This document shows, one piece after another, positions 15,626 to 64,000 of a stretch of DNA of 64,000 bases (the stretch's first letter is position 1; every line of letters begins with the position of its first letter). The stretch spans positions 8,980,701 through 9,044,700 of the forward strand of contig NC_037261.1 of the NCBI RefSeq assembly GCF_000002425.4, given 5' to 3'. The DNA is from Physcomitrium patens (Eukaryota > Streptophyta > Bryopsida > Funariales > Funariaceae). The notes under the pieces were generated by a model. It had not been told where the DNA came from and ran no database searches. It worked only from the letters and a program-made list of their open reading frames with translations. A program made the translations under genes and the position numbers.

Positions 15626-16120
15626 TGTCACGGACATAAAATACAAACTTGAAATCTAACAAGAAGTTCAAGAAGAAGTGGCAGAACTAGATTAAACAGA
15701 TGAGTACAAGAACAACACCAGAAAGGTGAGCTAGAACTCCAAGAGATGTGTTGTCGAGACTGAAGAACTCTTCAGCCTCGATCCCTATATATACTCCTAC
15801 TTAGGAAGCTTCTCGAGCTACTTCTATTAACTAGGAAGCTTCTAGAAGGTTCCAGAGGCTTCCTTTCTAGAAGGTTCTAGAAACTTCTCGAGCTACTTTT
15901 ATTAACTAGGAAGCTTCTAGAAAGTTCCAGGGGATTCCTTTCTAGAAGCTTCTAGAAACTTCTCTTCTAGAAGGTTCCAGAGACTTCCTTTCTAGAAGCT
16001 TCTAGAAACTTCTCTCTAAAAGGTTCCAGAGGCTTCTCTTCTAGAAGGTTCCAGAGGCTTGTTTTCTAGAAGGTTCTAGAAACCTCTCTCTATAAAGTTC
16101 TAAGGAATATGTCCCTAACA
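15626..16120 (-). repeat. element B 3' LTR (495 bp)
   Basis: Near-identical to 21420-21914. It contains twelve TTCTAGAA palindromes, with perfect TTC/GAA pentamers, for example at 15865-15887. Confidence 0.95.
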
Positions 16121-16167
16121 TCATCCCCTCCTTTAGCTTCGAGGTCTCTGAGAAGCAATGTTGTTGA

Positions 16168-16521: not shown

Positions 16522-16682
16522 ATCAAAAGACCAAACTACGATCTATCTTGGAGAAAATAACTACATCAACTATGAATTTTGCTGGTGCTCTCCTCTTTTC
16601 TTATATTGTTGGGAGAACAAGCTTCAGAAAGAAGCTATCATCGAATTGATTTAAGTTTATCGGGATGTCGTTGATGAAACTC

Positions 16683-19600: not shown

Positions 19601-20108
19601 CTTCCTTAGATGATCTTATAAACGCTCTTGCTCCAATGAATAAGGATTTCTTTTTTCGAGGTTTTTTATTAGGTTTTTTCTTGGGTGGTTTTGTGGGAAA
19701 AGTCATCTTCCGCAACCTCCAATCTATCAATGGATTATGTTTTTTCAACCAAGAAAGACCAAGAATAATAGGATTTGATGGGGTTCTAATAATATTAAAA
19801 ATAATATGACTACTATGGTCTTTAAATGTTACTTCTATAGGTTTTGATTCATGGGTGATGCTACCAGACAATAAAGGTCACCCATCTATGACCTCAACAT
19901 GAACAGGTTTTGATTTTTGTATTAAAGGGATCTTATGACGCTTTGTAAATTCTTCGTCTAAAAAACAAGCAGATGCTCCTGAGTCTAGTAGTGCTAAGGT
20001 TCTCAGTTTTTGAGGGCCGATAAACAGAGGGATTGTAAAACAAAGGGCAGGTTGGGCAGAAAGAAAGGAACCTGATTGTTGTTGGGATATTTCATTGTCC
20101 AGCCGCAT
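16683..20108 (-). pseudogene. element B pol (protease-RT-RNase H-integrase-chromodomain), four TGA stops
   Basis: A single frame from ATG at 20108 (MRLDNEISQQQ) to TAG at 16683. Domains in order: aspartic protease with LLDSGAS; reverse transcriptase with [14 protein letters not shown] and [11 protein letters not shown]; RNase H with [12 protein letters not shown] and [11 protein letters not shown]; integrase with an H..C..C zinc module, MDFITDLP, and later GQTERVNQ; and a C-terminal chromodomain ([22 protein letters not shown]). The stops lie near 19878, 18288, 17541 and 16788. Each is a TGA where sister copies or D have CGA (Arg). There are no frameshifts. The chromodomain assigns the element to the chromoviruses. 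Confidence 0.92.
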
Positions 20109-20113
20109 GGTTC

Positions 20114-21139
20114 CTACTGTGGCTGGGCATCCTCGTTTTCCTGAACAAATACTCCCCTAGTCTTGACTATGCCTCGATTTTGTTTTTTGGGGCAGTTTCT
20201 GACTTTGTGGCCTTCTCTACCGCAATACAAGCATAAATTTTCTTCCATACGTCGCTTTTTTTCTTCTATAGTAAGAGATTTGATACGTACCGCATCAATT
20301 TACATGTCTTCCACCTCTGAATGCAAATTTACACTGCTTGCCAACATAGTTGGAGCATGGCGAATTGTATGTTGTCTTGAGCGTTGATCTTGGCGACGTT
20401 GGAATAGGCGATTATCGCACTTCACAGCTTGGCTAATGGCTTCATTGAGCATTCGTGGATCAGGAAGAGTTAACAGCAAATCCTTCACATCATCTCTTAA
20501 ATCCCAATAGAATTGACTCATCAACGCTTCTTCATCTCAATTGATGTCGCATACTAATTGCCTGAAATCCGAAGCATAGACTGATGTAGAACGCATCCCC
20601 TGTCGTAGCGACCGGATCTTTGTTGTAGCCCATCAAACCTTATCGTGTTCACCAAATGCTTCCGCAAATGCTTCCAAAAAGGTTTCGAAGTTGTTTAATA
20701 TGGATGATCGTTTCTCAAATAAAGGAGCAAACCATGATAGAGCTTGACCCGTAAGTAAGGTTCCAACAAGCCCAACACGTGACTCCTCCGTTGGATATCG
20801 TTCGGGCTGTAAAACTGTTATCAACCTGATTTGATTGACGAATCCTCGAAACTTGGAACATGTTCCATCAAACTTATCTGGAAGGCTAACTCGAGGCTCC
20901 TTATGTTGTAGAACTAGTGGTTCTTGTCGAACCTGAGGTAAAGTTGTTTCTCCAAGTGTCGAAATTTGAGGCTGGTGTAGTTTAGATTGTGCTATCTCAG
21001 ATACTCCATCATTATGAAGCCTTGCCACCACTCCTTCAATCTCTGCAGTTCTTTGTGATAACGTAGCGAGGGCATTCATAATAGCATCTAACTTAGACTC
21101 CGAACTTTCTGTCATAGTAATGTCTTGACCTCCGGCCAT
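20114..21139 (-). pseudogene. element B gag (capsid/nucleocapsid), three stops
   Basis: Gag polyprotein that packages element RNA. It starts MAGGQDITMTESSESKLDAIMNALATLSQRTAEIEG, a coiled-coil-like start. The capsid core follows (LPDKFDGTCSKFRGFVNQI.., YPTEESRVGLVGTLLTGQALSWFAP). Near the end lies the CCHC zinc-knuckle region. The frame is open except for three stops: CGA to TGA before WATTK, TGG to TGA before DEEAL, and CAA to TAA before IDAV. All are transitions compared with copy A. It ends with TAG five bases before the pol ATG. Confidence 0.88.
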
Positions 21140-21406
21140 TTTAAAACAAGGACAAAAATGACCCTATAAGAGGCAATATTGGTTTATAGGAGGGTAATCC
21201 ACAACCTATAAAACGCCTTAAGAATTTAAAGAAGAGAAGTAATCCACTCTCTCCAAGAAGAATAAGACTCCAATATTGTAACAGAAGAAGTATCAGTTTA
21301 GAGGAGGGTAATCCGCAACCTCTAAAAAATGCTAGTATACATTCAAGTAGAGGGGTAATCCACACTCTACTAAGAAAGAACTAGCTCTGATATCTCAAGT
21401 AAGTGT

Positions 21407-21417
21407 AGTCTCGACAA
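21407..21417 (-). other. candidate self-primer binding site of element B
   Basis: Two bases inside the 5' LTR edge, TTGTCGAGACT (minus strand) is perfectly complementary over 11 bases to AGTCTCGACAA at 21545-21555 in the LTR, the predicted 5' end of the RNA. Element A has the same pair at 14618-14628 / 14479-14489, and element C at 32170-32180 / 32310-32320. A tRNA-iMet-like TATCAGAGC lies about 25 bases further in and is an alternative. Confidence 0.65.
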
Positions 21418-21579
21418 ACTGTCACGGATACAAAATACAAACTTGAAATCTAACAAGAAGTTCAAGAAGAAGTAGCAGAACTAGATTAAACAGATGAGTA
21501 CAAGAACAACACCAGAAAGGTGAGCTAGAACTCCAAGAGATGTGTTGTCGAGACTGAAGAACTCTTCAGCCTCGATCCC

Positions 21580-21587
21580 TATATATA
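21580..21587 (-). promoter_or_regulatory. LTR TATA box of element B
   Basis: TATATATA sits about 32 bp upstream of the base (21555) where the self-complementary AGTCTCGACAA begins. That is a normal distance to a transcription start, so it supports the proposed start of R. Confidence 0.65.
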
Positions 21588-21597
21588 CTCCTACTTA

Positions 21598-21880
21598 GGA
21601 AGCTTCTCGAGCTACTTCTATTAACTAGGAAGCTTCTAGAAGGTTCCAGAGGCTTCCTTTCTAGAAGGTTCTAGAAACTTCTCGAGCTACTTTTATTAAC
21701 TAGGAAGCTTCTAGAAAGTTCCAGGGGATTCCTTTCTAGAAGCTTCTAGAAACTTCTCTTCTAGAAGGTTCCAGAGACTTCCTTTCTAGAAGCTTCTAGA
21801 AACTTCTCTCTAAAAGGTTCCAGAGGCTTCTCTTCTAGAAGGTTCCAGAGGCTTGTTTTCTAGAAGGTTCTAGAAACCTC
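21598..21880 (-). promoter_or_regulatory. array of heat-shock-element-like TTC/GAA units in element B U3
   Basis: I count twelve TTCTAGAA octamers in about 280 bp. At 21659-21681, 21734-21756 and 21784-21806 five alternating TTC and GAA triplets occur at exact 5-bp phasing. At 21858-21875 there are four. This is the consensus bound by heat-shock factor trimers. The array lies just upstream of the LTR TATA box in element orientation. Function is inferred. Confidence 0.7.
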
Positions 21881-21919
21881 TCTCTATAAAGTTCTAAGGA
21901 ATATGTCCCTAACATAACC

Positions 21920-22215
21920 GCCTATTCCAACATCGCCAAGACCAATGTTCAAGACAACATACAGTTCGCCACACCCCAACTATGTCGGCAAGCAACGTGA
22001 ATTCACATTCAGAGATAGAAGACATGCAAATTGATGCGGTACGTGTCAAATCTCTTACTCTAGAAGAAAAAAAGCGGCATATGGAGGAAGATCTATGCTT
22101 GTATTGCAGTGAAGAAGGCCACAAAGTTGGAAACTGCCCCAAGAAGCAAAATCGACGTATTATCAAGACTAGGGGTGCGTTTATTCAGGAAAACAAGGAT
22201 GCCCAGCCACAATAG
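21920..22215 (+). pseudogene. element A gag, second part with zinc knuckle
   Basis: Continuation of A gag in the same frame after removal of B and one TAACC copy. It contains an intact CX2CX4HX4C zinc knuckle (CLYCSEEGHKVGNC) for RNA binding and ends DAQPQ-TAG. The pol frame begins five bases after the stop. Confidence 0.9.
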
Positions 22216-22220
22216 GAACT

Positions 22221-25200
22221 GTGTGGCTCGACAGTGAAATATCGCAACAACAACCAGGTTCCTTTCTTTCCGCTCAACCTGCCCTTTGTTTTACAATCCC
22301 TTTGCTTATTGGCCCTCAAAAACTGAGAACCTTAGCATTATTATATTCAGGAGCATCTGCTTGTTTCTTAGATGAAGAATTTGCAAAGCGTCATAAGATC
22401 CCTTTAGTACAAAAATCCAAACCTGTTCACGTTGAGATCATAGATGGATGACCTTTATTGTCTGGTAGTGTCACCCATGAATCAGAACCAATAGAAGTGA
22501 CGTTTAAGGACCATAGTAGTCATATTATTTTCAATATTATTAGAACCCCATCAAATCCTGTTATTCTTGGTCTTTCCTGGTTAAAAAAACATAATCCCTC
22601 CATAGATTGGAAGTTGTGGAAGATGACCTTTCCCACAAAACCACCCAAGAGCAAGCCTAGTAGAAAACCCCGAATAGAGAAATCCTTATTTATTGGAGCA
22701 AGAGCGTTTATAAGATTGTCCAAGGGAGGCACACCATTTGTCATTTATGCGGTTCCAACTATTGGGGAGAAGATCTCGACAGCAAGTATACCGGAGCAAT
22801 ATAAGGATTTTAAAGACGTGTTTCAAAAGAAAAATACCGATATGCTACCGGAACACAGACCATATAATTGCGCCATAGACTTACAGGAAGGAGCACAATC
22901 GCCTTTTGGCCCAATCTACAATCTATCGCAGATGGAGTTCGCGGAGTTGCGGAAGTACATCGACGAGAATCTAGCCAAGAACTTCATCTGTCATTCAAAA
23001 TCGTCAGCTGGAGCACCCATCTTATTTGTGAAGAAGAAAGATGGCTCGTTGCGGATGTGCTTGGACTATCGAGGCCTCAACAAGGTAACAAAGAAGAATC
23101 GTTACATGTTACCCTTGATTTCTGATCTCTTAGAACAACTTGGACGTGCAAGGATCTTTACAAAAATTGATCTAAGGGGAGCTTACAACCTCGTACGAAT
23201 CAATGAAGGAGATAAGTGGAAGACAGCGTTCCATACAAGGTATGGCCATTTTGAGTATAATGTCATGCCCTTTGGTCTTACTAATGCTCAAACGGTCTTT
23301 AAACATATGATGAATGACATTTTCCGAGAGTACCTTGATGATTTTGTTGTCATCTATTTGGATGATATTTTGATATTCTCCAAAAATGAGGAAGAGCATG
23401 AAAAACACGTTCGTTTGGTATTGGAGAAACTACGCGAGCGAGGACTATATGTCAAGTTGGAGAAGTGTTTATTTCACTAAATAGAGATGGAGTTTCTGGA
23501 GTTCGTTGTGACTATAGAAGGCTTGAAGATGGACCCCAAGAAGGTGGAAGCAATCGTGTCCTGGGAGGTTCTGAAGACGGTTAGAGACGTACAATGCTTT
23601 CTTGGTTTTGCCAACTTCTATTGGATCTTTATCAAGAATTACTCTCAAGTTGCTGCTCCTCTCACTCGGTTGATATGCAAGGATAAGCTGGAATGGGGAC
23701 CTCTAGCGGAGAAGGCGTTTTAAAATCTAAAGACCGCATTTACTACGAATCCAATCTTGGTACATCCAGACTTTACAAAGAACTTCTATTTAGAAATTGA
23801 TGCTTTGGATTTTGCTTTGGAAGCTGTACTTTCACAAATGGAAGAAGACAAGAAGCTCCATCTGGTTGCATTCTATTCTCGAAAGTTCTCTGCTGCTGAA
23901 ATCAATTATGAGATCCATGATAAGGAACTTCTTGCTATAGTAGATTCTTTCCAAGAATGGCGTCACTTTCTTGAAGGAGCTGCACATCTAGTGACCGTAT
24001 ACACAGATCACAAGAATTTGGAGTATTTCATATCGGCTCAAGTTTTAAATCGACGTCAAGTTCGATGGAGTATGTTGCTATCTAGGTTCGTTTTTATTAT
24101 CACTTATCGACTTGGAAAGCAGCAAGGACTATCTGATGCCTTATTGAGGAGATCGTATCTTGTACCAAAGGCTGGAGAAGCAGCGTTTGATCAACAATGT
24201 ATGACATTGTTGAAGCCAGAGCAATTTCAGCTTTGTGCTACTATTATGCCAATTGATGCTGACTTCCTGAATCAAGTACGTGCCGTAACCATTGAAGATT
24301 CAATAGCCATTGATATTAAGCAGCGTGCCAATGACGACAAGTTCAAGGTGGAAGGTGATCTTTTATACTTTGAAGAGCAGTTATATATCCCAAAAGGATC
24401 AGCACAACTCCGAGTTCTTCAATCTCGCCACGATTTTCCAGGTGCGGGACATTTTGGATTCAACAAGACCTTGGAGCTTATTTCTCAAGATTTTTGGTGG
24501 CTCCAAATGTAGAAGGATGTGAAAGATTTTGTCTTCTCCTGCGACATTTGTTGAAGATTCAAGAATCCTCGGCATCGCCCTTATGAACTCCTACAGCCAT
24601 TGCCGATTCCACGTCGACAATGGTCTTCAATTTCCATTAAATCCATCACAGACTTGCCATCATCGAACTCATTTGACAACATCTTTGTCGTGGTAGATCG
24701 GCTTACAAAAATGGCAAACTTTGTCCCTTGCAAGAAGACATCATCTAGTGAAGTCACAGCAAGGCTCTTTTTCGATAATGTGTATCGATATCATGGACTA
24801 CCAGATGATATCGTTTCAGATCGAGGAACCCAGTTCGTATCAAAGTTTTGGAGATCTTTCTTTGAGATACTGAAGGTGGATATCAAGCTTTCTTCGGCTT
24901 TTCATCCTCAAACTGACGATCAAACAGAACAGGTGAACCAAGTCTTGGATCAATACTTACGATGCAACATCAACTATCAACAAGACGATTGGACCACATA
25001 TCTGCCGCTAGTCGAGTTTGCATCTAACAACACCCTCCATGCATCGACTCAATACACACCATTCTTTTTCAACTATGGGTATCATCCAAAGCTTGATTTA
25101 TTGAGTCCATCAACAAATAACAATCCAGCAGCTGAAGGATTTGCGAAACAACTATCAGAGCTTCAAAATACGTTGAAGCTTCAATTACAATCCGCTCAAG

Positions 25201-25639
25201 AATCCTACAAGGCGTCTGTAGATAGATTTCGGAATCAAGCACCTACTTATAAAATTGGAGATAAAGCATGGCTTCTTCGACGGAATATTAAGACCAAGCG
25301 ACTATGTGATAAGTTGGACTATTGGGACCATTTATCATCCAGAAGCAAATCAATTCAGTGGCGTACCGTTTGGAATTACCGGCTTCTATGAAGGTACATC
25401 CAGTCTTTCATGTTTCTTTGTTGGAGCCTTATCGAGAGTCATCTTTTTCTGGGAGAGTGCAATGTCGGCCTTCTAGTATTGAGATCGAGAACCACGAGGA
25501 ATACGAGGTTGAAAAGGTGTTGGATTCTCGGCGAAGGTGGGGCAAGTTAGAGTATCTTGTTCATTGGTACGGCTACGACATTAATGAGAGAACGTGAGAG
25601 CCAGCTGAAAATCTCACCAATGCGCCGCAAAAGATATAG
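22221..25639 (+). pseudogene. element A pol, multiple stops and a 7-bp deletion
   Basis: Same domain order as B. The first codon is GTG where B and C have ATG. The protease motif reads LLYSGAS, so the catalytic Asp is lost. RT retains [11 protein letters not shown]. Stops occur near 22449, 23478, 23721, 24510 and 24552. Most match C-to-T changes of CGA, CAA or TGG; the one near 24552 (TCA to TGA) is an exception. Near 25325 a 7-bp deletion relative to B (flanked by ATT) shifts the frame, and the chromodomain ([19 protein letters not shown]) lies in the new frame. A further TGG to TGA occurs at 25595. Confidence 0.9.
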
Positions 25640-25818
25640 GAGTTTCATCAACAACATCCTCATAAACCTAAGTCGGTTCGACAATAGCTTCTTTCTGAAG
25701 CTTGCTCACCCAAGAATATAAGAAAGAGAGAGAGCACCACCAAAATTCGTAGTTGATGTAGTTATTTTCTCCAAGATAAAATAGAATTTTTTCACTAGCC
25801 ATAGTTTGGTCATCTGAT

Positions 25819-26172
25819 ATGGATAGCCAAGAGACAGATACTATGCTAGTCAGATTATCTCAACCAACTAGTTCATGAAGGCGACCCCGAAATGAAGAAC
25901 CACCTGCACCACGACGATGACGGAGGATACCAAGTAACCGATCACTGGTGATTGTAATTGAGTCCGAGTTTGCTTACGATGGTCAACCAGAAGGCATATT
26001 TGCAGGATAATTTCACAATGAAGACACGGAAGTTCATGCTTGGTCAGAAGTTGAAGGAGTGGGCCACTACCATTGGCTTCAAGGGCCGATGAACCACTTA
26101 CCTCGTGAACAACAGTTGGAGTTCATAGCAGACGTTATGCGACAGATCTTCATTTTCTTGCGTTGGTACTGA
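25819..26172 (+). pseudogene. element A accessory ORF relic
   Basis: Same position and same 118-codon length as in B, starting MDSQETDTMLVRLSQP and ending LRWY. Three in-frame stops (TGA, TGA, TAA) replace two Arg-type codons and a Gln. No indels are present, so the reading frame is otherwise kept, including GVGHYHWLQGPMNHLPREQ. Confidence 0.85.
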
Positions 26173-26222
26173 TTGACAATAACATTGCTTCTCAGAGACC
26201 TCGAAGCTAAAGGAGGGGGTGA

Positions 26223-26542
26223 TGTTAGGGACATAGTCCTTAGAACCTTCTAGAGAGAAGTTTCTAGAACCTTCTAGAGATAAGTTTCTAGAACCTTCTA
26301 GAAGCAAGTCTCTGGAACCTTCTAAAAGCTTCCTAGTTGGTAGAAGTTGCTTGAGAAGCTTCCTAAATAGGAGTATATATTGGAATCGAGGCTGAAGAGT
26401 TCTTCAGTCTCGACAACACATCTCTTGGAGCTCTAGTTCACCTCTCTGGTGTTGTTCTTGTATTCATCTGATTAATCTAGTTCTTGCCAGTTCTTCTTGA
26501 ACTTCTTGGTAGATATCAAGTCTGTATTCTTTGTCCGTGACA
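26223..26542 (+). repeat. element A 3' LTR (320 bp)
   Basis: TGTTAGGGACAT to CCGTGACA, with a single copy of the U3 segment that is doubled in the 5' LTR. It is followed by the TAGAG target duplication. Confidence 0.92.
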
Positions 26543-26547
26543 TAGAG

Positions 26548-26862
26548 CTCTAAGAGATGTGTTGTCGAGACTCAAGAACTTTTCAGCCTCGATTCCAATA
26601 TATATTCATATTTAGGAAGCTTCTCAAGCAACTTCTACCAACTAAGAAGCTTCTAGAAGGTTCCAGAGATTTGCTTCTAGAAGATTCTAGAAACTTATCT
26701 CTAGAAGGTTCTAAGGACTATGTTCCTAACATCTTCTACCAACTAGGAAGCTTCTCAAGCAATTTCCATCAATTAAGAAGCTTCTAGAAGGTTCTAGAGA
26801 CTTGCTTCTAGAAGGTTCGAGAAACTTGTTTCTAGAAGGTTCTAAAGACTATGTCCCTAACA
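26548..26862 (-). repeat. element C 3' LTR, remaining 315 bp
   Basis: Continuation of the C LTR after the TAGAG duplicate of element A. It contains the internal duplication of the LTR start (..TTCCTAACATC.. and ..GTCCCTAACA) and several TTCTAGAA units. Confidence 0.88.
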
Positions 26863-26912
26863 TCACCTCCTCTTTTAGCTTCGAGGTCTCTGAGAAGCAA
26901 TGTTGTTGTTAA

Positions 26913-27266
26913 TCAGTACCAACGCAAGAAAATGAAGATCTGTCACATAATGTCTACTATGAACTCCAACTATTGTTTACAAGGCAAGTGGTTTATCTGC
27001 CCTTGAAGCCAACGGTACTGACCTACGCCTTTGACTTCTGACCAAGCATGAACTTCCGTGTCCTCATTGTGAAATTGTCCTGCAAACACGCCTTCTGGTT
27101 GACCATCGTAAGTAGGCTTGAGCTTAAATACAATCACCAATGATCGGTTACTCAGTATCCTCCATCATCATCACGGTATAGGTAATTCTTTATCTCCTAA
27201 TCACCTTCGTGAGCTAGTTGGTTGAGATAATCTGACTGGCATAGTATCTATCTCTTGGCTATCCAT
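26913..27266 (-). pseudogene. element C accessory ORF relic
   Basis: 354 nt without indels, from MDSQEIDTMPVRLSQPTS to LRWY, with several in-frame stops (a cluster of TGA near the Arg-rich part, a TAG after the NHLP.KQ block, and a TGA near the end). It shares YDGQPEGVFAGQFHNEDTEV with B. Confidence 0.82.
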
Positions 27267-27445
27267 ATCAGAAGACCAAACTATGGCTATTGAAAAAAAT
27301 CTACTTTATCTTGGAGAAAATAACTACATTTACTACGAATTTTGGTGGTGCTCTCTCCCTTTCTTATATTTTTGGGTGAGCAAGCTTCAGAAAGAAGTTA
27401 TCGTCGAACTGGCTTAGGTTTATGAGGATGTTGTCGATGAAACTC

Positions 27446-30400
27446 CTATACCTTTTGCAGCGCATTGGCGAGATTTTCAGCTGGCTCCCACTTTCGTTCA
27501 TTAATGCCGTAGCCGCATCAATGAACAAGATACTCCAACTTGCCCCACCTTTGCCGTGAATCCAACACCTTTTCAACCTCATATTTCTCATGGTTCTCGA
27601 TCTCAATACTAGGTGGCCGATATTGCACTCTTCCAAAAAAAGACGACTCTCGATAAGGCTCCAACAAAGAAACATGAAAGACTGGATGTACCTTCATAGA
27701 AGCCGATAATTCAAAACGGTACGCCACTGAATTGATTTGCTTCTGGATGATAAATGGTCCCAACCTTCTATAGTACAACTTATCACATGGTCGCTTAGTC
27801 TTGATATTCTGTCCAAGAAGCCATGCTTTATCTCCAATTTTGAAAGTAGGTGCTTGATTCCGAAATCTATCTACAGACACCTTATAGGATTCTAGAGCGG
27901 ATTATAATTGAAGCTTCAATGTATTTTGAAGCTCTGATAGTTGTTTCGCAAATCCTTCAGCTGCTGGATTGTTATTTGTTGACGGACTCAATAAATCAAG
28001 CTTTGGATGATACCCATAGTTGAAAAAGAATGGTGTGTATTGAGTCGATGCATGGAGGGTGTTGTTATATGCAAACTTGGCTAGCGACAGATATGTGGTC
28101 CAATCGTCTTGCTGATAATTGATGCTGCATCGTAAGTATTGTTCCAAGACTTTGTTCACCCGTTCCGTTTGGCCGTCAGTTTGAGGATGAAAAGTCGACG
28201 AAAGCTTAATATCCACCTTTAGTATCTCAAAGAAAGATCTCCAAAACTTTAATACGAACTGGATTCCTTGATTTGATACAATATCATCTGGTAGTCCATG
28301 ATATCGATATCCATTATCGAGAAAGAACCTTGCTGTCACTTCACTGGACGATGTTTTCTTGCAAGGGACAAAATGTGCCATCTTTGTAAGCCGATCTACC
28401 ATGATAAAGATGTTGTCAAATGAGTTCGATGATGGCAGGTCCATGATGAAGTCCATAGAAACTGAAGACCATGGTCGACGTGGAATCCACAATAGCTATA
28501 AGAGTCCATAAGGGCGATGCTGAGGATTCTTGGATCTTGAAGAGATGTCGCCGGAGAGGACAAAATCTTTCACATCTTTCCACATTTGGGGCCACCAAAA
28601 ATCTCGAGAAATAAGCTCCAAGGTCTTGTTGAATCCAAAATGTCCTGCAGCTGGAAAATCGTGGCGAGATTGAAGAACTCGGAGTTGTGCTAGTCCTTTT
28701 GGGATATACAACCGCTCCTCAAAGTATAAAAGATCTCCCTCCACCTTGAACTTGTCGTCATTGGCATGCTGCTTAATATCAATGGCTATTGAATCTTCAA
28801 TGGTCACGACACATACCTAATTCAAGAAGTCAGCATCAATTGGCATAATAGTAGCACAAAGCTGAAATTGCTCTGGCTTCAACAATGTCATACATTGTTG
28901 ATCAAACGCTGCTTCTCCAGCCTTTGGTACAAGATACGATCTCCTCGATAAGGCATCAGATAGTCCTTACTGCTTTCTAGATCGATAAGTGATAACAAAA
29001 TCGAACCTAAATAGCAACATACTCTATCGACCTTGACGTCAATTTGAAACTCGAGCCGACATGAAATACTCCAAATTCTTATGATCTGTGCATACGATCA
29101 CTGGGTGTACAGCTCCTTCAAGAAAGTGACGCCATTCTTGAAAAGAATCCACTATAGCAAGAAGTTCCTTATCATGGATCTCATAATTGATTTCAGCAGC
29201 AGAGAACTTTCGAGAATAGAATGCAACCGGATGGAGCTTCTTGTCTTCTCCTATTTGTGAAAGTACAACTCCCAAAGCAAAATCCAAAGCATCAGTTTCT
29301 AAATAAAAGGCCTTTGTAAAGTCTGGATGTACCAAGATTGGAGTTGTAGTAAATGCGATTTTTAGGTCTTGAAATGCCTTCTCCGCTAGAGGTCCCCATT
29401 CCAGCTTATCCTTGCATGTCAACCGAGTGAAAGGAGCAGCAACTTGAGAGTAATTCTTGATGAAGATCCGATAAAAGTTGGCAAAACCAAGAAAGCATTA
29501 TACGTCTCTAACCGTCTTCGGAACCTCCCAGGACACGATTGCTTCCACCTTCTTGGAGTCCATCTTTAAGCCTTCCGTAGTCTCAACGAACCCCAAAAAC
29601 TCCATCTCTATTTGGTGAAATAAACACTTCTCCAACTTGGCATATAGTCCTTGCTCGCGTAGTTTCTCCAAGACCAAATGAACATGCTTTTCATGCTCTT
29701 CTTCATTTTTGGAGAATATCAAAATATCATCCAAATAGATGACAACAAAATCATCAAGGTGCTCTCGGAAAATGTCATTCATCATATGTTGAAAGACCGC
29801 TGGAACATTGGTAAGACCAAAGGACATGACATTATACTCAAAATGGCCATACCTTGTACGGAACGTTGTCTTCCACTCATCTCCTTCATTGATTCGTACG
29901 AGGTTGTAAGCTCCCCTTAGATCAATTTTTGTAAAGATCCTTATACGTCCAAGTTGTTCTAAGAGACCAGAAATCAAGGGTAACATGTAACGATTCTTCT
30001 TTGTTACCTTGTTGAGGCCTCGATAGTCCATGCACATCCGCAACGAGCCATCTTTCTTCTTCACAAATAAGATGGGTGCTCCAGCTGACAATTTTGAATG
30101 ACGGATGAAGTTCTTGGCTAGATTTTCATCGATGTACTTCCGTAACTCTACGAACTCTGTCTGCGATAGATTGTAGATTGAGCCAAAAGGCGGTTGTGCT
30201 CCTTCTTGCAAGTCTATGGTGCAATCATATGGTTAATGTTCCAGTAGCATGTCGGCATTCTTCTTTTGAAACACGTCTTTAAAATCCTTATATTGCTCAG
30301 GTACACTTGCTGTTGAGATCTTCTCCCCGATAGCTGGAGCCGCATAAATGACAAACGATGTGCCTTCCTCAGACGATCTTATAAACGCTCTTGCTCCAAT

Positions 30401-30871
30401 GAATAAGGATTTCTCTATTCGGGGTTTTCTACTAGGCTTGCTCTTGGGTGGTTTTGTGGGAAAGGTCATCTTTCGCAACCTCCAATCTATGGATGGGTTA
30501 TGCTTTTTTAACTAGGAAAGACCAAGAATAACAGGATTTGATGGAGTTCCAATAATATTGAAAATAATATGACTATTATGGTTCTTAAACATCACTTTTG
30601 TAGGTTCTGATTCGTGGGTGATACTACTAGACAATAAAGATTGTCCATCTATGACCTCAACGTGAACAGATTTGGATTTTTGTACTAAAGGGATCTTATG
30701 ATGCTTCATAAATTCTTCATCTAAGAAACAAGCAGATGCTCCTGAATCTAATAATACTAAGGTTCTCAGTTTTTGAGGGCCAATAAGCAAAGGGATTGTA
30801 AAGCAAAGGGCAGGTTGAGCGAAAAGAAAGGAACCTGGTTGTTGTTGCGATATTTCATTGTCCAGCCACAT
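27446..30871 (-). pseudogene. element C pol, many in-frame stops
   Basis: One continuous frame from ATG at 30871 (MWLDNEISQQQPG) to the family's TAG at 27446, with no net frameshift. Protease [20 protein letters not shown], RNase H and integrase blocks are all visible. Stops near 30512, 30233, 29498, 29039, 28496, 27902 and 27518 correspond to Trp, Arg or Gln codons in sister copies. That fits transitions in methylated DNA. Confidence 0.9.
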
Positions 30872-30876
30872 GGTTC

Positions 30877-31902
30877 CTATTGTGGCTGGGCATCCTTGTT
30901 TTTTTGAACAAACGCACCCCTAGTCTTGACAATACGTCGATTTTGCTTCTTGGGACAATTTTCAACTTTGTGGCCTTCTTCACTGCAATACAAGCATAGA
31001 CCTTCCTCCATACGCTGCTTTCTTTCTTCTAAAGTAAGGGATTTGACACGTACCGCATCAATTTGCATGTCTTCTACCTCTGAATGTGAATTCACACTAC
31101 TTGCTGACATAGTTGCGACGTGACAAATCGTATGTTGTCTTGAACATTGGTTTTGGTTACGTTGGAATAGGTGATTATCGTACTTCACAGCTTGGCTAAT
31201 AGCTTCATTGAGCGTTTGCGGATCAGGAAGAGTTAACAGCAAATCCTTCACATCGTCCCTTAAATCCCAATAGAATTGACTCATCAACGCTTCTTCGTCC
31301 CAATTGATGTCGCATGCTAATTGCCTAAAATTCGATGCATAGACTGATGTAGAGCGCATCCCTTATCGTAGTGACCGGGTTTTTGTTGTAACCCATCGAA
31401 CCTTATTGTGTTCACCAAATGCTTCCACAAACGCTTCCAAAAAGGTTTCAAAGTTCTTTAGTATGGACGATCGTTTCTCAAACAAAGAAGCAAACCTTGA
31501 TAGAGCTTGCCCTGTAAGTAAGGTTCTAATAAGCCCAACACGTGACTCCTCCGTTGGATAGCGTTCGGGCTGTAAAACTGTTATCATCCTGATTTAGTTG
31601 ACAAATCCTTGAAACTTGGAACGCGTACCATCGAACTTGTTTGGAAGGCTAACTCGGGGCTTCTTATGTTGTAGAACCAGCGGTGCTTGTCAAACCTGAG
31701 GCAAAGTTGCTTCTTCAAGTGCAGAAGTTTGAGGTTGGTGCAACCTAAATTGTACCATCCCAGATGCTCCATCATTATGAAGCCTTGCCATGACTCCTTC
31801 AATCTCTGCAGTTCTTTGCGATAATGTAGCAAGGGCATTCATGATAGCATCCAACTTGGACTTCGAACTTTCCATCATACTAATGTCTTGGCCTCCGACC
31901 AT
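30877..31902 (-). pseudogene. element C gag, stops
   Basis: Starts MVGGQDISMMESSKSKLDAI. Stops occur where sister copies have CGA (near 31690), CAA (near 31588) and CAA (near 31363). The zinc knuckle CLYCSEEGHKVENC is intact. It ends in TAG, five bases before the pol ATG. Confidence 0.88.
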
Positions 31903-32182
31903 TCTAAGAGAAGGACAGAAATGACTCTACAAGAAGACAATATTGGTTTAGAGGAGGGTACTCCACAACCTCTAAAATGCCTTAAGAGCTTCAAAAAAAG
32001 GGGTAATCCACTCTCTCCAAGAAGAATAAGACTCTAATATTGTAACAAAAGAAGTATCAGTTTAGAAGAGGGTACTCCGCAACCTCTAAAATGCTAGTAC
32101 ACTTCCAAGCAGAGGGGTAATCCACACTCTAACGAGGAAGAAACTAGCTCTGATATTTGATGTGAGTGAAGTCTCGACAAAC

Positions 32183-32609
32183 TGTCAAGGACACAGAAAT
32201 ACAGACTCGAGATCTAACAAGAAGTTCAAGAAGAACTGACAAGAATTAGATTAATCAGATGAATACAAGAACAACACCAGAGAGGTGAGCTAGAGCTCCA
32301 AGAGATGTGTTGTCGAGACTGAAGAACTCTTCAACCTCGATTCCAATATATACTCCTATTTAGGAAGCTTCTCAAGCAACTTCTACCAACTAGGAAGCTT
32401 CTAGAAGGTTCCAAAACTTGCTTCTAGAAGGTTCTAGAAACTTATTTCTAGAAAGTTCTAAGGACTATGTCCCTAACATCTTCTACCAACTAGGAAGCTT
32501 CTCAAGCAATTTCCATCAACTAAGAAGCTTCTAGAAGGTTCCAGAGACTTGCTTCTAGAAGGTTCTAGAAACTTGTCTCTAGAAGGTTCTAAGGACTATG
32601 TCCCTAACA
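32183..32609 (-). repeat. element C 5' LTR (427 bp)
   Basis: In element orientation it runs from TGTTAGGGACAT at 32609 to CCTTGACA at 32183. It includes the duplicated U3 segment, a TATA-like stretch near 32344-32352, and the predicted RNA start near 32320. Confidence 0.9.
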
Positions 32610-32831
32610 TCATGTCCAATTTGATCTCCCTATAAAATTAAAATCAATAGATTAGTATGATCATATTCATAACTATTCTATAATAATTAAAACCATTACA
32701 GATCACAAAAGCCTAATTTATAGATATTTTTGTAGGCATTCTTAGATAAATATATGATTATCATATATTTCTAATGTTAAATTACTTCAAAGATATAATT
32801 ACAAAGAAAAAATAGAATGAAATAAGGATAA

Positions 32832-40289: not shown

Positions 40290-40455
40290 TATCACATGTA
40301 TTAGTAGCTTGTGGAATAAGCTAATGAAGTGGTGTACTTATAACAAACTTGCCTTGCAAGTTAAGACATGTGTCTTACAAATTAGATACATGTTGAAGGT
40401 CCTAAAGAACATCGCTATATAGCTCTTAAGTAGATAGTATAAATAGAAAGAAGAA
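40290..40455 (+). repeat. D-family LTR relic, right part
   Basis: Resembles the middle of the D LTR in forward orientation (AACTTGCCTTGCAAGTTAAG, GACATGTGTCTTACAAATTAG, GAAGGTCCTAAAGAACATCG). It continues the left relic after the Tc1-like insertion and fades out near 40455. Confidence 0.68.
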
Positions 40456-40911
40456 TGAAGTTAAAAAATTAAAATGATATAATAAAAAAGTGACTAAGAT
40501 AGAATAGATGCTAAATATGAAAATTTTAGAAAAATATTCTTAAAGATCACCTTAAAATATTAATTTATATATATAAAAAAAATTAATGAATAGATATGAT
40601 ATGATTTTAGAATCTATTGCTTTAGAAATAAATATTTAATTTTTAAGACTTAAATAATACTAAATAAATAAAATAAATAATACATTCATAAGAGAATTTG
40701 ACTATTATATACAAACAATACTATATAACATAAAACAATCATTACTTTTAACAACAAACAACAATAATTAATTATAGAAGATATAGTTAGAATCTACTTC
40801 AAACAATAGTTTAAATTGCACATAATAATAAGTTAAAATACATAATATGTATGTACTAAAGATACAAAATTGGGCCAAAATAAAATAATACATATTGCAC
40901 TAATTGATATA

Positions 40912-46569: not shown

Positions 46570-47121
46570 TGTCAAGGACAAAGATTCGATGAAGGAAAAT
46601 ATACACAAAAAAGCTATCTCGATATAATAAGTCAAAATATAAACAAGTAGGTATATTAAAAAGAAACTGGAATGGCTATTGCCACAAGACAAGAAACTAA
46701 AGACTCTTGAACCTGGACTAGAAGCAAGAAAGGAGTTGACAAGAGTGAAGAAGCCTTCACTCTTGTCTCTATATATAATATCTAACTAGGGGCTACGTGG
46801 CGACGTTCTATAGGACCTCCAATATGTGTTGACTTTGTAGGACACATGCCTTGACTTACAAGGCAAGTTTTTCTACGTGTGGGCCACATAGTTAGCTTGA
46901 TCTTCAAGCTAACAACATGTGTGGTACATGGCCAACTTGTTGACCACGTTTCTAATCCAAAAAGTCAATTAAAGACACCTATGAAGTCAAAGCAGCGTCT
47001 AGGAAGTTTCTAGGAAGCTTCTATATTAAATATTATAGAATTAACTTACTTTTATCTACTTTTACTTACTTCTACCTATTTGTATATGTAATTATTAGCT
47101 TACATGATTATGGCCGTGACA
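46570..47121 (-). repeat. element D 3' LTR (552 bp)
   Basis: TGTCAAGGACAA to GGCCGTGACA on the plus strand; near-identical to 52391-52942. Confidence 0.95.
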
Positions 47122-47679: not shown

Positions 47680-50600
47680 TCATCTTGGTTTTGATGGATG
47701 TCGTTGATGAAAAACTTTGACTTTAGCTGATGCATTTCCTAGATTCCTGGATGGCTCCCATGTGCGTTCACTAATATCATATCCGCGCCAATGAACAAGA
47801 TATTCCAGCTTATTTCGGCGCCGCCTTGAGTCTAATATCTCTTCCACCTCAAATTCTTCATTATTATCTACTTCTATAGGAGGCGGTGGCATTTGTCTTC
47901 TTCCTTGTATATCCACTGTCTTATATGGTTCAAGAAGAGATACATGGAATACAGGATGGATCTTCATTGACTCCGGTAGATGTAACCGATATGCAACTGG
48001 GTTGATCTGTTCAGAAACAGAAAAGGGGCCAAGCCTACGATAGTCCAACTTGTCACAAGAACGAGTAGTCTTGATATTGCGACGAAGTAACCATACCTTA
48101 TCACCCACGTTGATTTGTGGTTGCTCCTTACGATATAGATCTGCGTTTATTTTTTGTCGTTCTTGAGCTTCCTTCAATTGCGTCTTCATTATTGCATGTA
48201 ACTCTGACAACCGATTTGCCATATCTTCTGCTGCAGGATTATCAACTTTTAAAAAATCAAAAGTATCAAGTCGTGGATGATAGCCATAATTGGCAAAGAA
48301 AGGTGTTTGTTGCGTGGAAGAATGTACCGTATTATTATAAGCAAACTCTGCCAATGGCAGAAGGGTTGTCCAATCATCTTGTTGGTAGTTGATAGTACAC
48401 CTTAAATATTGCTCCAAGACTTGGTTTACGCGCTCTATTTGTCCATCAGTTTGAGGATGGAAAGCCGAAGATAGCTTTATGTCCACTTTTAAAAACTTGA
48501 AAAGGGTCCTCCAAAATCTTGACACAAATTGAGTTCCCCTATCCGATATGATATCTTTAGGTAATCCATGATAGCGATAGATATTATCAATGAAAAGCTT
48601 AGCTGTTTCTTCACCTGTGATAGATTTTGTACATGGCACAAAATGTGCCATCTTGGTGAAACGATCTACTATCACAAATATAGAATCATAAGATCTTGAG
48701 CTTGGAAGATCTGTGATGAAATCCATAGAAACAGAAGACCATGGTTGTTCTGGTATAGGTAATGGCTGAAGAAGTCCGTAAGGTCGATGACGAGGAATTT
48801 TTGATCTTGAACAAATATCACATGATTGTACAAAGTCTTTGACTGACTTCCACATTTGTGGCCACCAAAAATCTCTTGATATGAGTTCCAAAGTCTTATT
48901 ATATCCAAAGTGCCCTGCTGCTGGAAAGTCATGACGTGCTTGAAGAACACGTAAACGTACTTCTCCTTCTGGAACATATAGGCGTCCTTCAAAATATAAT
49001 AGATTATTCTTGAACTCGAACTTAGAAGGATCATGAGACTTGGAAGAATTATTCTCGATATCATAAACAAGAGGGTCTAAGGACATACTGGACTGGATTT
49101 GCTTGAGAAAAGTTGAATCAACAGTCAATGTTGATTTCATTGCTCGGAGATGAAATTGCTCCAGTTTCAAGAGGACCGTTCTTTGTTGCTCAAAAGCTGC
49201 ATCTCCTTCTTTTGGTGCAAAATAAGAACGTCTGGATAGGGCATCAGACAAACCTTGTTGTTTTCCTGGCCAATAAGTGATAATAAACTCGAATCTTGAC
49301 AAAGACATACTCCAACGAGCTTGACGACGATTCAACACGCTTACTGACATGAAATAATCGAGGTTCTTGTGATCTGTATACACAGTGACTGGACTAGAAG
49401 CGCCTTCTAGATAATGACGCCATTCTTGAAAGGAATCCACGATCGCAAGAAGTTCTTTATCGTGGATCTCATAATTGATCTCGGCTGCTGAGAATTTTCT
49501 TGAATGAAAAGTTATCGGATGAAGTTTGTTATCTATTCCCATTTGTGATAAAACTGCACCCAAGGCAAAATCTGATGCATCTGTTTCCATAAAAAATGCC
49601 TTGGAGAAGTCAACACGATATAAGACTGGTGCAGAGACAAACGATGTCTTCAAGGCTTCAAATGCTGCTTCCGCTTCTTGATTCCATTGAAATTTATCTT
49701 TACTAGTCAAGCGTGTAAGTGGAGCTGCAACTCATGAGAAATCTTTGATGAAGATCCGATAGTAATTGGCAAATCCCAAGAAACATTGGACATCTCTTAC
49801 TGTCCTTGGAATCTTCCAATCCATGATTGTTTGGACTTTCTTAGAATCCATCATGAGACCATCATTTGAAATGATGTATCCTAAAAAGTCAACTTGAGTA
49901 GTATGAAATACACACTTTTCCATCTTGGCGTACAATCCTGCATCTCTAAGTTTTTGTAATACTTGACGAACATATATTTCATGTTCTTCGACGTTCTTAG
50001 AATAGATCAGGATATCGTCTAGATAGCAGACGACAAAATTGTCTAAGAATTCACGAAATACATCATTCATGAGATGTTGAAAAGCAGCTGGTGCATTCGT
50101 GAGTCCAAAGGGCATGACATTATATTCGAAATGTCCATACCTGGTTCGAAACGCAGTCTTCCATTCATCTCCTTCTTTGATCCGTACTAGATTATATGCT
50201 CCTCTTAGATCTATTTTTATATAGATCTTAGCTTGATTCAACTGGTCAAGGAGTCCTGATATCAAAGGTAATGGATACCTGTTCTTGATTGTGATCTTGT
50301 TGAGTCCTCGATAATCAACACACATTCGTAAAGATCCATCTTTTTTCTTTACGAATAGAATTGGAGCTCCTGCTGGAGATTTTGAATGGCGTATGAAATT
50401 CTTGGCTAAATTCTCATCAATATATGTCTTGAGTTCAGCCATCTCATCTTGCGATAAACTGTAAATTGGTCCAAATGGTGGCTGAGTTCCTTCCTTGAGG
50501 TCGATTGAACAATCATATGGGCGATGCTCAGGAAAAATATCTGCATTCTTTTTCTCAAAAACGTCTTGATACTCCTGATATTGACTTGGAACGCCACTTG

Positions 50601-51168
50601 AAGTCTTTACGTTTTCAGAAATAGGTGCAGCATAAACAGCAAAAATTGATCCTTCTTTTGTTGCGTGTATAAATGCTTTTGCACCTATCAGTACGGGTTT
50701 TACTATACTAGACTTATAATTTTTTACTTGGTTAGTAGAACTATTAATAACGCTCTGGGAAAAGTCAAGTTTACGCGAATTCCAATCTATTCGAGGGTTA
50801 TATTTTTCTAGCCAAGATAAACCTAAAATAACTGGATTGGACGGGGATTTAATTATGTTAAAAGCTATGTAGCTATCATGACCGTCTATTGTTACTTTTA
50901 TAGGATGAGTTTCATGAGTGACATCTCCAGAAGACAAGGGACGACCATCTATGACTTCTACATGTATTGGTTTAGGTTTCTGTACAAAGGGTATTTTACG
51001 ACTTTTAACAAATTGTTCATCTAAAAAACATGCTGAGGCTCGCGAATCTAATAAAGCAGAGGCTTTGTAATTCTTAGGTCCTAAATATAAGTCTATTATA
51101 AAACAAGGAGAGGGTTTTGAGGAGAAGATAGGACCTTCATTAGGAATTGTACAAGGTTCCAGCTGCAC
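47680..51168 (-). pseudogene. element D pol with chromodomain, one in-frame stop
   Basis: One frame from GTG/Met at 51168 to 47680, with a single TGA at 49732 between RT and RNase H (FS-stop-VAAPLTRL). The protease motif is LLDSRAS, so the Gly of DSG is replaced by Arg. RT has LRMCVDYRGLNKIT and YLDDILIYSKN. RNase H has [12 protein letters not shown]. Integrase has the zinc module (RHDFPAAGHFG.., CDICSRSK) and the catalytic Asp, Asp and Glu in MDFITDLP, SDRGTQF and GQIERVN. The chromodomain is complete near the end ([29 protein letters not shown]). The accessory ORF follows about 95 bp downstream. Confidence 0.93.
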
Positions 51169-51173
51169 GGTCC

Positions 51174-52217
51174 CTATTGTAGCTGGACAAATCTATTTTC
51201 CGACATGTTGTCTTTTTTGACCGTCATACCCCTCATTTTATAGTTGCGTCATTTCTTTGGACAATGTTGAGCAGTGTGCTTAGGTTCTCCGCAATATAAA
51301 CATAATCCTTCTTGACGACGACGAATCTTTTCTTGCTCAGTTAGAGGTTTAAAACGTATCGCGTCAATTTGCATGTCTTCTACTTCCGAATGTACGTTTG
51401 GCAAAGATGTTGATGTTGCCATTGAGTAATAACGTTGAGGTTCCCGTGAATGATTCTCAGATCGAAATTCGAAAAGTCGATTATCACATTTTACTGCAAA
51501 ATCGATTGCTTGACTCAAAGTTTGAGGATCAGGTAAGTTGAGCATCAATTTCTTTACTTCGTATTGCAATCCATAAAGAAATTGACTGATGAGTGCAACA
51601 TCATCTCACTTGATGTCAATTGCAAGTTGTCGAAATTGTGAAGCATACATTGTTACTGAGCGATTTTCTTGTCGTAGAATTCGGATCTTATTTGTTGCAA
51701 CACGAGTTGCATCGTGTTCACCATACATAGATCGAAACTCCGCCAAAAAAGCTTTCAAATTATCCAATATTGGATTTCGTTGTTCAAGAAAAGACGAAAA
51801 CCATGATAATGAAGAACCAGAAAGTAGAGTGCCAATAAACCTGACTTGTGATCCTGGAGTTGGATAGCTTTGCGGTTGAAGTTCAATTGCCAATTGTACT
51901 TGATTGATGAACCCTCGAAACTTTGATCTCGTACCATCAAATTTCTTAGGTAAGGCAATTCTTGGTTCTCTAGTGCTTATAGGGTGTTGTACAATTGGAG
52001 AAGGAACGTGATTTGTTGTAGATGTTGAAGCAGCTCCGATCATCTCTATATCTCCACTTTCTGCTATTCTTGTTCTTTCCTGTGTTGGTGAATTGAGTTG
52101 ATGCATCGCAAGCATTAACTCCCTCATTTGCTCTTGCATTTGTGCCATTGCACTCTTCATTTCAACAAGCTCTACCATAATGATACGAAGAAGAAAAATT
52201 TGTTTGATATTGCTCAA
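51174..52217 (-). pseudogene. element D gag, two stops
   Basis: The start may be 52217 or the ATG at 52178 (MVELVEMKSAMAQMQEQMRE, a coiled-coil-like start). The capsid core includes LPKKFDGTRSKFRGFINQV and GSQVRFIGTLLSGSSLSWF. The zinc knuckle is CLYCGEPKHTAQHC. A TGA replaces the conserved Trp before DDV (51606), and another stop follows CPKK (51249). It ends in TAG, five bases before the pol start codon, as in the other family. Confidence 0.88.
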
Positions 52218-52377: not shown

Positions 52378-52388
52378 ACTCTTGTCAA
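52378..52388 (-). other. candidate self-primer binding site of element D
   Basis: Minus-strand TTGACAAGAGT, two bases inside the LTR, pairs over 11 bases with ACTCTTGTCAA at 52557-52567 in the LTR, about 32 bp downstream of the TATA box. The sequence differs from the A/B/C pair, but length, offset and position are the same. TATCAGAGC, resembling an iMet tRNA site, occurs about 25 bases further in. Confidence 0.65.
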
Positions 52389-52390
52389 TC

Positions 52391-52942
52391 TGTCAAGGAC
52401 AAAGACTCGATGAAGGAAAATATACACAAAAAAGCTATCTCGATATAATAAGTCAAAATATAAACAAGTAGGTATATTAAAAAGAAACTGGAATGGCTAT
52501 TGCCACAAGACAAGAAACTAAAGACTCTTGAACCTGGACTAGAAGCAAGAAAGGAGTTGACAAGAGTGAAGAAGCCTTCACTCTTGTCTCTATATATACT
52601 ATCTAACTAGGGGCTACGTGGCGACGTTCTATAGGACCTCCAATATGTGTTGACTTTGTAGGACACATGCCTTGACTTACAAGGCAAGTTTTTCTACGTG
52701 TGGGCCACATAGTTAGCTTGATCTTCAAGCTAACAACATGTGTGGCACATGGCCAACTTGTTGACCACGTTTCTAATCCAAAAAGTCAATTAAAGACACC
52801 TATGAAGTCAAATCAGCGTCTAGGAAGTTTCTAGGAAGCTTCTATATTAAATATTATAGAATTAACTTACTTTTATCTACTTTTACTTACTTCTACCTAT
52901 TTGTATATGTAATTATTAGCTTACATGATTATGGCCGTGACA
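52391..52942 (-). repeat. element D 5' LTR (552 bp)
   Basis: In element orientation it starts TGTCACGGCCAT at 52942 and ends GTCCTTGACA at 52391. It contains two imperfectly spaced GAAnnTTC dyads near 52824-52842, a TATATATA box near 52590-52598, and the predicted RNA start at about 52567 preceded by a hairpin. Confidence 0.95.
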
Positions 52943-63409: not shown

Positions 63410-63944
63410 TGTAATGGGCATAATCAACACTAGGAATTACTTAAATAAAAATGTTTAAATAAAAATAAATAAAAGTAGGTAAACATTAATAATATTTTGT
63501 GTATAAGCTTCTTAGAAGCTCCATAGATGTTGATTTGACTTTATAGATGTTTGTAGGTGATTAGTGAATTGAAAACTTGGCAAACAAGTTGGCCAAGTGT
63601 AGCATATGTTAGCCACTTGTAGTACAAGAAACTTGCCTTATAAGTTAGATACATGTCACATAAGTTGGATAATTATTGGAGGTCTTATAAAAGGTTGCTA
63701 TATAGCTCCTAATTAGGAAGTATATATAGAAGTAAGAAAGAGGTATTTTTTCACTCTTGTTAACTTTTTTCTTGCTTCTTGTCTACTTGTAAGAGTCTCT
63801 AGTTTTTTATTCTTTGGAAATAGCCATTCCAATTTCTTCTTGAATATACATATTTTTTTTATTTCAATTTTATCATCATTTTTTTTTCTTTTTTTTACAC
63901 ATCTTACTTATTTATGTATCTTTTTTGAATTCTTATTCTTGATA
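63410..63944 (+). repeat. 5' LTR of a diverged D-family gypsy element entering the window edge
   Basis: Diverged but collinear with the D LTR in forward orientation: start TGTAATGGGCATAATCA, then AGAAGCTCCATAGATG, AACTTGCCTTATAAGTTAG, TATA box at 63721, CTTTGGAAATAGCCATTCCA, end near TTCTTGATA. The predicted RNA start is at 63753, and the 11-bp partner lies at 63947-63957, two bases inside the LTR. Internal sequence continues to the window end and includes a decayed TATCAGAGC-like motif. Confidence 0.75.
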
Positions 63945-64000
63945 GATTAACAAGAATATACCTTCAAGATTACAGATTTGTTTTTTTTTTAAAAATTAAG

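Follow-up and report, generated by a model that had tools for sequence, protein, structure and literature searches.

Predicted self-priming in moss chromoviruses and a U3/R hairpin that may hold the primer

Introduction

In Tf1 of fission yeast, the RNA begins with 11 nt complementary to the PBS beside the LTR (PMC7175516), and the 5′ leader forms a "pretzel" of three duplexes into which U3 does not enter (PMC10085805), as described in the parts of these papers drawn on here. The same part of the first paper records a proposal of self-priming for the fungal (Cryptococcus) element Tcn1. For plants, the portion of a survey consulted here (PMC6317226) confines the chromovirus groups Tekay, Reina and CRM to seed plants and reports Galadriel from vascular plants and Tcn1 from mosses and club-mosses. 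It predicts self-priming for most Tcn1 elements and for no other plant chromovirus group, and likewise for the TAR lineage of plant Ty1/copia elements. The Selaginella element SM-Tcn1 differs, being reported without evidence of tRNA or self-priming in the pages of that study used here (PMC2864245). Chromodomains of group I carry an aromatic cage of Y24, W45 and Y48 (PMC3350952, in part), and the most abundant Physcomitrium patens element, RLG1, is a gypsy element with a chromodomain that is expressed in protonema (PMC7466625, in part).

Here we analyze a window, the whole 64,000-nucleotide stretch of the P. patens genome that was read, which holds four LTR elements (A to D) and one LTR with a leader stub (E). 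Our overall explanation is that A-E are moss chromoviruses, most likely of the Tcn1 clade (related to Tf1/Sushi), that start reverse transcription by self-priming and, in A-D, can close the primer in a U3/R hairpin, and we give this explanation as a whole a probability of roughly 0.8. Self-priming itself is not new here, as the consulted part of the survey already predicts it at the clade level for moss and club-moss Tcn1 (PMC6317226); the original prediction for this locus had described it as known for fungi and vertebrates, and it is not limited to them. Beyond that prediction we add primer:PBS pairs from fern elements and a U3/R hairpin, which it had not mentioned.

Results

Elements in the window

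Three of the elements form a nest of three levels at 14195-32609, with A (forward strand) inserted in the 3′ LTR of C (reverse strand) and B (reverse strand) inserted in A. LTR identities over the aligned parts rise from 93.6% in C to 97.5% in A and 97.9% in B, which agrees with the nesting order. D, on the reverse strand, is not nested; its 552-bp LTRs are 98% alike and its target duplication is imperfect. E, an LTR plus leader stub, lies at the window end.

14195-14615, forward strand: 5′ LTR of A (TG...CA)
26223-26542, forward strand: 3′ LTR of A, with R at 26406-26416 and the U3/R hairpin at 26385-26414
15626-16120, reverse strand: 3′ LTR of B
21420-21914, reverse strand: 5′ LTR of B
15621-15625 and 21915-21919: 5-bp target site duplication TAACC from the insertion of B into A
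32183-32609, reverse strand: 5′ LTR of C
26543-26862 and about 14064-14194: 3′ LTR of C, split by A, with target site duplication TAGAG
52391-52942, reverse strand: 5′ LTR of D
46570-47121, reverse strand: 3′ LTR of D, with R at 46736-46746 and the U3/R hairpin at 46738-46767
47680-49731, reverse strand: open piece of D with RNase H, integrase and chromodomain (F-W-Y cage)
49732-51192, reverse strand: open piece of D with protease and RT

The U3 of the ABC family is made up of short palindromic TTCTAGAA-type repeats whose number differs among copies (14195-14440, 15840-16105, 26265-26380 and 32360-32619).

Pfam matches give the domain order of D as protease, RT, RNase H, integrase and chromodomain, which is the gypsy order. 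The pieces of B follow in the same order, with a chromodomain that is read with stops; RT and integrase pieces were seen in A and C, in which no chromodomain matched. Aligned to a CDYL chromodomain, D has F-W-Y at the cage positions. B has Y-W-Y, where the W and the last Y belonged to the search motif, and the six fern contigs with a chromodomain match (described below) have F or Y as the first cage residue, again with the W and last Y in the search motif. By these residues the chromodomains of D and B are of group I type, and the ordered pieces of D and B identify the window elements at the sequence level as chromoviruses, that is, Ty3/gypsy elements with a chromodomain. The original prediction of plant chromoviruses holds, with the plant being a moss. 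Elements of the TAR lineage have the copia order, with integrase before RT. A-D are unlike TAR in having RNase H before integrase, as are D and B in having a chromodomain; we rejected membership in copia TAR because the integrase-before-RT order was not found.

The host also bears on classification. An EF-hand (CML-type) gene at 6372-7514 has its closest named relative in Ceratodon purpureus (85%, covering 45% of the query), and the other named matches are a second Ceratodon protein (65%) and, at 41-54%, proteins of lycophytes, liverworts and seed plants, all among the 120 of 421 matches listed. These moss relatives point to a moss host, a non-seed plant as expected for the Tcn1 clade. Since the host is a moss and Tcn1 is the only plant chromovirus group predicted to self-prime, A-E most likely belong to the Tcn1 clade, the RT tree covering only the sequences found here. 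The elements share with that clade the gypsy order, a C-terminal chromodomain with an aromatic cage, the moss host and the lack of a tRNA PBS beside the LTR. They are also like RLG1 in being gypsy elements with a chromodomain whose copies are plentiful in the 470 Mb genome, and one of the two window families is probably the expressed, mobile RLG1, as judged from these likenesses.

Primer and PBS pairing

Each of the elements has an 11-mer at the predicted start of R and its complement just past the LTR.

14479-14489, forward strand: self-primer of A, R nt 1-11, AGTCTCGACAA, TATA 32 nt before
14618-14628, forward strand: PBS of A, TTGTCGAGACT, 2 nt past the LTR end
21545-21555, reverse strand: self-primer of B, R nt 1-11
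21407-21417, reverse strand: PBS of B
32310-32320, reverse strand: self-primer of C, R nt 1-11
32170-32180, reverse strand: PBS of C
52557-52567, reverse strand: self-primer of D, R nt 1-11, ACTCTTGTCAA, TATA 31 nt before
52378-52388, reverse strand: PBS of D, TTGACAAGAGT
63753-63763, forward strand: decayed self-primer of E, in the LTR at the window end
63947-63957, forward strand: decayed PBS of E, 10 of 11 pairs, without a U3/R hairpin

Read directly at these coordinates, PBS and primer are complementary at 11 of 11 positions in A, B and C (TTGTCGAGACT/AGTCTCGACAA) and in D (TTGACAAGAGT/ACTCTTGTCAA), as originally predicted, and D keeps the same length and 2-nt spacer with a different sequence. 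The PBS and primer of E (TTAACAAGAAT/ACTCTTGTTAA) pair at 10 of 11 positions and carry two changes relative to D, one compensated and one uncompensated, again as predicted. Two details needed revision. The PBS, described as lying 2 nt inside the 5′ LTR, instead starts 2 nt downstream of the LTR 3′ CA in A-D (GACA followed by GT or GA). The distance from the first T of TATA to R+1, given as about 33 nt in A, B and C and about 32 nt in D, was nearly right and is measured as 32 and 31 nt, respectively. The predicted R+1 base is an A preceded by C; C then A is a usual transcription start context.

The ABC and D families differ at 3 of the 11 positions, and all three differences are compensated. 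When LTRs were dinucleotide-shuffled (4000 trials each) and scored for an exact complement of at least 11 nt located 0-5 nt inside the element, the rule was passed by 1 shuffle of A, 0 of B, 2 of C and 5 of D; as copies of a single family, A, B and C are not mutually independent. A tRNA-complementary site next to the LTR, which the original prediction named as part of what would count against it, was not seen: by eye, no TGG-starting tRNA-type PBS lies within the first 25 nt of A-D. The motif TATCAGAGC, which corresponds to the core part of the PBS for plant initiator tRNA-Met, occurs 23-27 nt into each of A, B, C and D (in A at 14643-14651) and also in two further ABC copies. It may be a relic, an arm of a third duplex (CTAGCTC/GAGCTAG in A, B and C) or a chance match.

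Relatives on fern and bog contigs

Relatives were fetched by protein only, by scanning bacterial and archaeal genome contigs with an alignment of 19 related proteins, which yielded 12 contaminant contigs (L001-L012); a scan of IMG/VR for more copies found no relative. Eight contigs (L001-L006, L010 and L012) come from a Trichormus MAG, L011 from a Synechococcales MAG, L007 from a bog MAG and two from other sources. Because of the symbiont's name, the retrotransposon contigs of the Trichormus MAG are most likely sequence of its host, the water fern Azolla, contaminating a bacterial genome record. On the tree, L011 groups with the ABC family of the window. An LTR-leader junction is present in eight contigs (L001, L002, L004, L005, L006, L007, L011 and L012); L003, L008, L009 and L010, which are without one, were left out of the counts.

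At the junction, 7 of the 8 contigs with a leader carry an exact inverted repeat 11 or 12 nt long; these were taken from the exact inverted repeats listed per contig (at most 12 each), with no set sequence sought. The 5′ copy of L001 pairs at only 7 of 11 positions by eye. The primer of L011 is AGTCTCGACAA, the same as in ABC, and the others are AAGGCGAACAA in L002, L004 and L006, AAGGTGAACAA in L012, ACTCTTGATCAA in L005 and TTACTTGGTAA in L007. L012 differs from L002, L004 and L006 by one compensated change. TATA precedes R+1 by 32 nt in L001 (3′ end), L002, L004, L006, L011 and L012 and by 33 nt in L005, while no TATA at a spacing of 31-33 nt was seen in L007. The geometry in moss and fern families comprises a 2-nt spacer, a duplex of 11 bp (12 in L005) and 31-33 nt from TATA to R+1. 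TATCAGAGC is absent from the printed leader parts of L011, L001, L002, L004, L005, L006 and L012.

We folded 11 leaders and found that the first 11 nt (12 in L005) are paired with the PBS in the MFE structures of 10 of them (A, B, C, D, L011, L002, L004, L006, L012 and L005); the leader of E lacks the primer helix, with a mean pair probability of 0.10. For RNA starting at R, the mean primer:PBS pair probability is 0.85-0.96 in nine elements, L005 and E apart, the 12-nt pair of L005 being read from its MFE fold rather than from pair probability. The Tf1 "pretzel" (PMC10085805, in part) is found only in part here: a second helix within the primer duplex appears in the folds of L002, L006, L012 and L005, and candidates for a third duplex are weak (7 nt in A, B and C, 9 nt in L005 and only 6 nt in D). 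Geometry, covariation and the folds of 10 of 11 leaders support the Tf1-type self-priming originally proposed, and we consider it very probable that A-E start reverse transcription in this way, from a start site placed by TATA spacing.

Copies elsewhere in the genome

Across the moss's own genome (470,438,890 bases in 101 contigs), the ABC 11-mer occurs 3648 + 3629 times, compared with 38 + 47 times for its reversed control. A blind pair scan of 200 kb elsewhere in that genome (C2:3.0-3.2 Mb) returned 14 matches. Two were pairs, one of ABC type and one of D type; the other 12 were AT-rich, and we rejected them as chance matches since by eye they have no LTR end. A looser scan of the same 200 kb added one exact D-type pair and one D-type pair with two mismatches. 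One D-type copy in the sample (TTGATAAGAGT/ACTCTTATCAA) carries an additional compensated change. Another eight ABC copies each carry a single uncompensated change. These were picked for a single intact 11-mer, a choice that forces uncompensated changes, and we set such solitary copies aside as uninformative about compensation. A PBS variant, TTTTCGAGACT, recurs with an unchanged primer in three copies on contig C1 of the same genome (L061, L077 and L080) that have differing LTR types.

In retroviral PBS inheritance, a new PBS may be copied from the primer. If the same applies here, the mechanism should keep R and PBS alike, which would make their covariation less surprising, yet more telling.

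A hairpin at the U3/R boundary

The primer also has a partner upstream. A 5′ arm that lies between TATA and the start site and closely resembles the PBS forms a stem with the U3/R junction, taking in 3-4 nt at the end of U3 and 8-9 nt at the beginning of R; the 3′ arm of this hairpin is the primer. The loop is 4 nt, and the stem is 12-13 bp in both moss families and one fern clade.

14458-14487, forward strand: U3/R hairpin of A, 5′ LTR
21547-21576, reverse strand: U3/R hairpin of B
32312-32341, reverse strand: U3/R hairpin of C, 5′ LTR
26564-26593: U3/R hairpin of C, 3′ LTR, 3 of 13 positions unpaired
52559-52588, reverse strand: U3/R hairpin of D, 13 Watson-Crick pairs, 4-nt loop, 5′ arm starting with PBS nt 3-11

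D forms 13 Watson-Crick pairs and the 5′ LTRs of A, B and C form 12 with 1-2 wobbles. L011 has 13 pairs including one wobble, L012 has 11 and one mismatch, and L001 (3′ LTR), L002, L004 and L006 have 12, with one wobble each in L004 and L006. The 5′ arm matches PBS nt 3-11 at 9 of 9 positions in D, L002, L004 and L006, at 8 in L011 and L012, at 7 in B and at 6 in A and C. Fold energies have z scores of -3.6 to -7.5 in 9 of 11 elements; 2 of 500 shuffles reached the hairpin energy in C and 0 of 500 in the other eight. In the same test of 11 elements the hairpin is absent from L005 and L007, and it is also absent from E. As L005 and L007 self-pair without it, the hairpin is not required for self-priming. 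On the midpoint-rooted RT tree the L005 group adjoins the moss group with support of 90/90 and is separate from the fern hairpin group. This position does not fit a single gain of the hairpin without loss, on a branch that is not strongly supported. At 40293-40460 the window also holds a D-like U3 piece that ends at the tip of the 5′ arm of the U3/R hairpin, as if copying or recombination had broken at the hairpin loop.

We aligned the hairpins of 18 chosen moss copies (15 distinct, identical rows being used once), made up of 15 of the 25 R regions found by a downstream tag (the varying ones and those of the window) together with B, D and L011, with E left out. Most of the aligned copies had been fetched for an intact primer or PBS 11-mer, which leaves the left arm unselected. 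In this alignment paired cells make up 88.2% of the total and two-sided changes affect 5 of 13 pairs, compared with 33-49% of cells and 0-2 two-sided pairs when the structure is slid. None of 500 shuffles reached the covariation score, 5 reached the number of two-sided pairs and 80 reached the number of pair types, in controls that do not remove the relatedness among copies. Two of the five two-sided pairs lie within U3, outside primer and PBS, where one copy (L038) has AAGG/CCTT in place of GAAG/CTTC in part of the stem. The outermost pair forms in only 4 of the 15 rows.

Five fern hairpin copies have 98.3% of cells paired and 2 of 12 pairs changed on both sides, with C-G, T.G or T-A at U3 -2; with five rows only, their covariation score was reached by 64 of 500 shuffles. 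All 12 inner pairs are kept in 17 of the 25 ABC-type R regions found by the tag, and of the other eight, five lose one pair, two lose two and one loses three. A further 15 R regions include 13 with the 12 inner pairs intact, one that lacks a single pair and one that lacks three. The compensated D-type copy of the 200-kb sample has a hairpin arm without the matching change. Altogether, the hairpin is likely to be a selected structure. It may also be undescribed, as the portions of the Tcn1 and Tf1/self-priming literature covered by our partial search do not mention a U3/R hairpin over the primer.

Competition between the hairpin and the PBS

The U3-R-U5-PBS strand of 11 elements was folded as RNA and as DNA, with U3 -22 to -1 held open as the control. 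When U3 was free to pair, the RNA probability of primer:PBS pairing was 0.00 in A, B, C, D and L011, 0.01 in L002, 0.18 in L004, 0.84 in L006 and 0.68 in L012, and in the hairpin-less L005 and L007 it was 0.97 and 0.87. With U3 held open it was 0.87-0.97 in all 11 elements (0.87-0.95 in A, B, C, D and L011). DNA folds gave 0.00-0.02 in A, B, C, D, L011 and L002, 0.19 in L004, 0.36 in L006, 0.10 in L012, 0.97 in L005 and 0.85 in L007. In these models the predicted lock holds strictly in moss, leaks in most of the fern folds and does not form in L005 and L007.

Discussion

Like Tf1, the window elements have a predicted RNA whose first 11 nt are complementary to a PBS beside the LTR (PMC7175516, in part). 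We propose that the RNA would begin at an A 31-32 nt past TATA, placed there by spacing, and that its first 11 nt would fold back onto the PBS, 2 nt inside the element. By analogy with Tf1, RNase H would then cut after nt 11 and the freed 11-mer would prime minus-strand DNA. The stretch of U3 that immediately precedes R, and that nearly repeats the PBS, could close the primer in a hairpin of 12-13 bp that would form in LTR DNA, in 3′-LTR RNA and in read-through RNA. Because RNA starting at R is without the left arm, the primer would be free only at the true 5′ end, and elsewhere the hairpin would bar it from the PBS. Plus-strand strong-stop DNA has the PBS at its 3′ end, and the hairpin would also stop this end from snapping back or from priming on its own R. 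Copies of the 11-mer are found in the 3′ LTR, read-through RNA and cDNA as well, so a self-priming element would have to stop the primer from pairing in the wrong place.

On the modeled folds, the hairpin could plausibly act as a lock, releasing the primer only when the RNA starts at R, and we put this at a little under even odds. We suggest more tentatively that the third copy of the priming sequence, in U3, guards against mispairing, and that primer, PBS and lock change together in a three-way covariation common to moss and fern elements.

Alternatively, the hairpin could serve transcription or 3′-end formation, for example by distinguishing the 5′ from the 3′ LTR for polyadenylation, or it could be a promoter palindrome, which we regard as a real if not a favored possibility. 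It lies between TATA and a point just past the start site, it is inherently absent from R-starting RNA save for the 3′ LTR part, and the U3 of ABC is rich in short palindromes. However, the stem sequence varies by family and tracks the primer, which fits base pairing better than a protein-bound motif, and the fern hairpins are without the GAAG/CTTC core. It is unlikely that the hairpin is a functionless by-product of snap-back synthesis, in which plus-strand DNA would copy R from the PBS at its 3′ end: the left arm does nearly copy PBS nt 3-11 (9 of 9 in D and three fern contigs), but the stem runs 3-4 pairs beyond the primer into U3 and has two-sided changes there.

Turning to the 11-mers, pairing and covariation alone do not show priming, and their duplex could be a structural RNA element for packaging, translation or dimerisation, with another primer in use. 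We find this quite improbable, as one arm of the duplex sits exactly at the start of minus-strand DNA, 2 nt from the LTR end, the other is exactly at the predicted RNA 5′ end, and the same arrangement has been shown to prime in Tf1 (PMC7175516 and PMC10085805, in part). Least probable is tRNA priming at TATCAGAGC with another role for the 11-mers, which we rejected because the motif, despite its presence in A-D and two further ABC copies, has no TGG start, lies too far from the LTR to define the LTR end and is missing from the printed leaders of relatives that keep the 11-mer pairs (all those listed above except L001).

Self-priming is seldom used in place of tRNA priming, and it has been worked out experimentally mainly in yeast Tf1. 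The moss genome holds thousands of copies of two families, which would permit direct tests on native RNA and cDNA in a laboratory plant. If the U3/R hairpin is a lock, it would explain how a self-primer avoids misfiring at its other copies, and it would make some self-priming elements in other genomes easy to recognize from their sequence.
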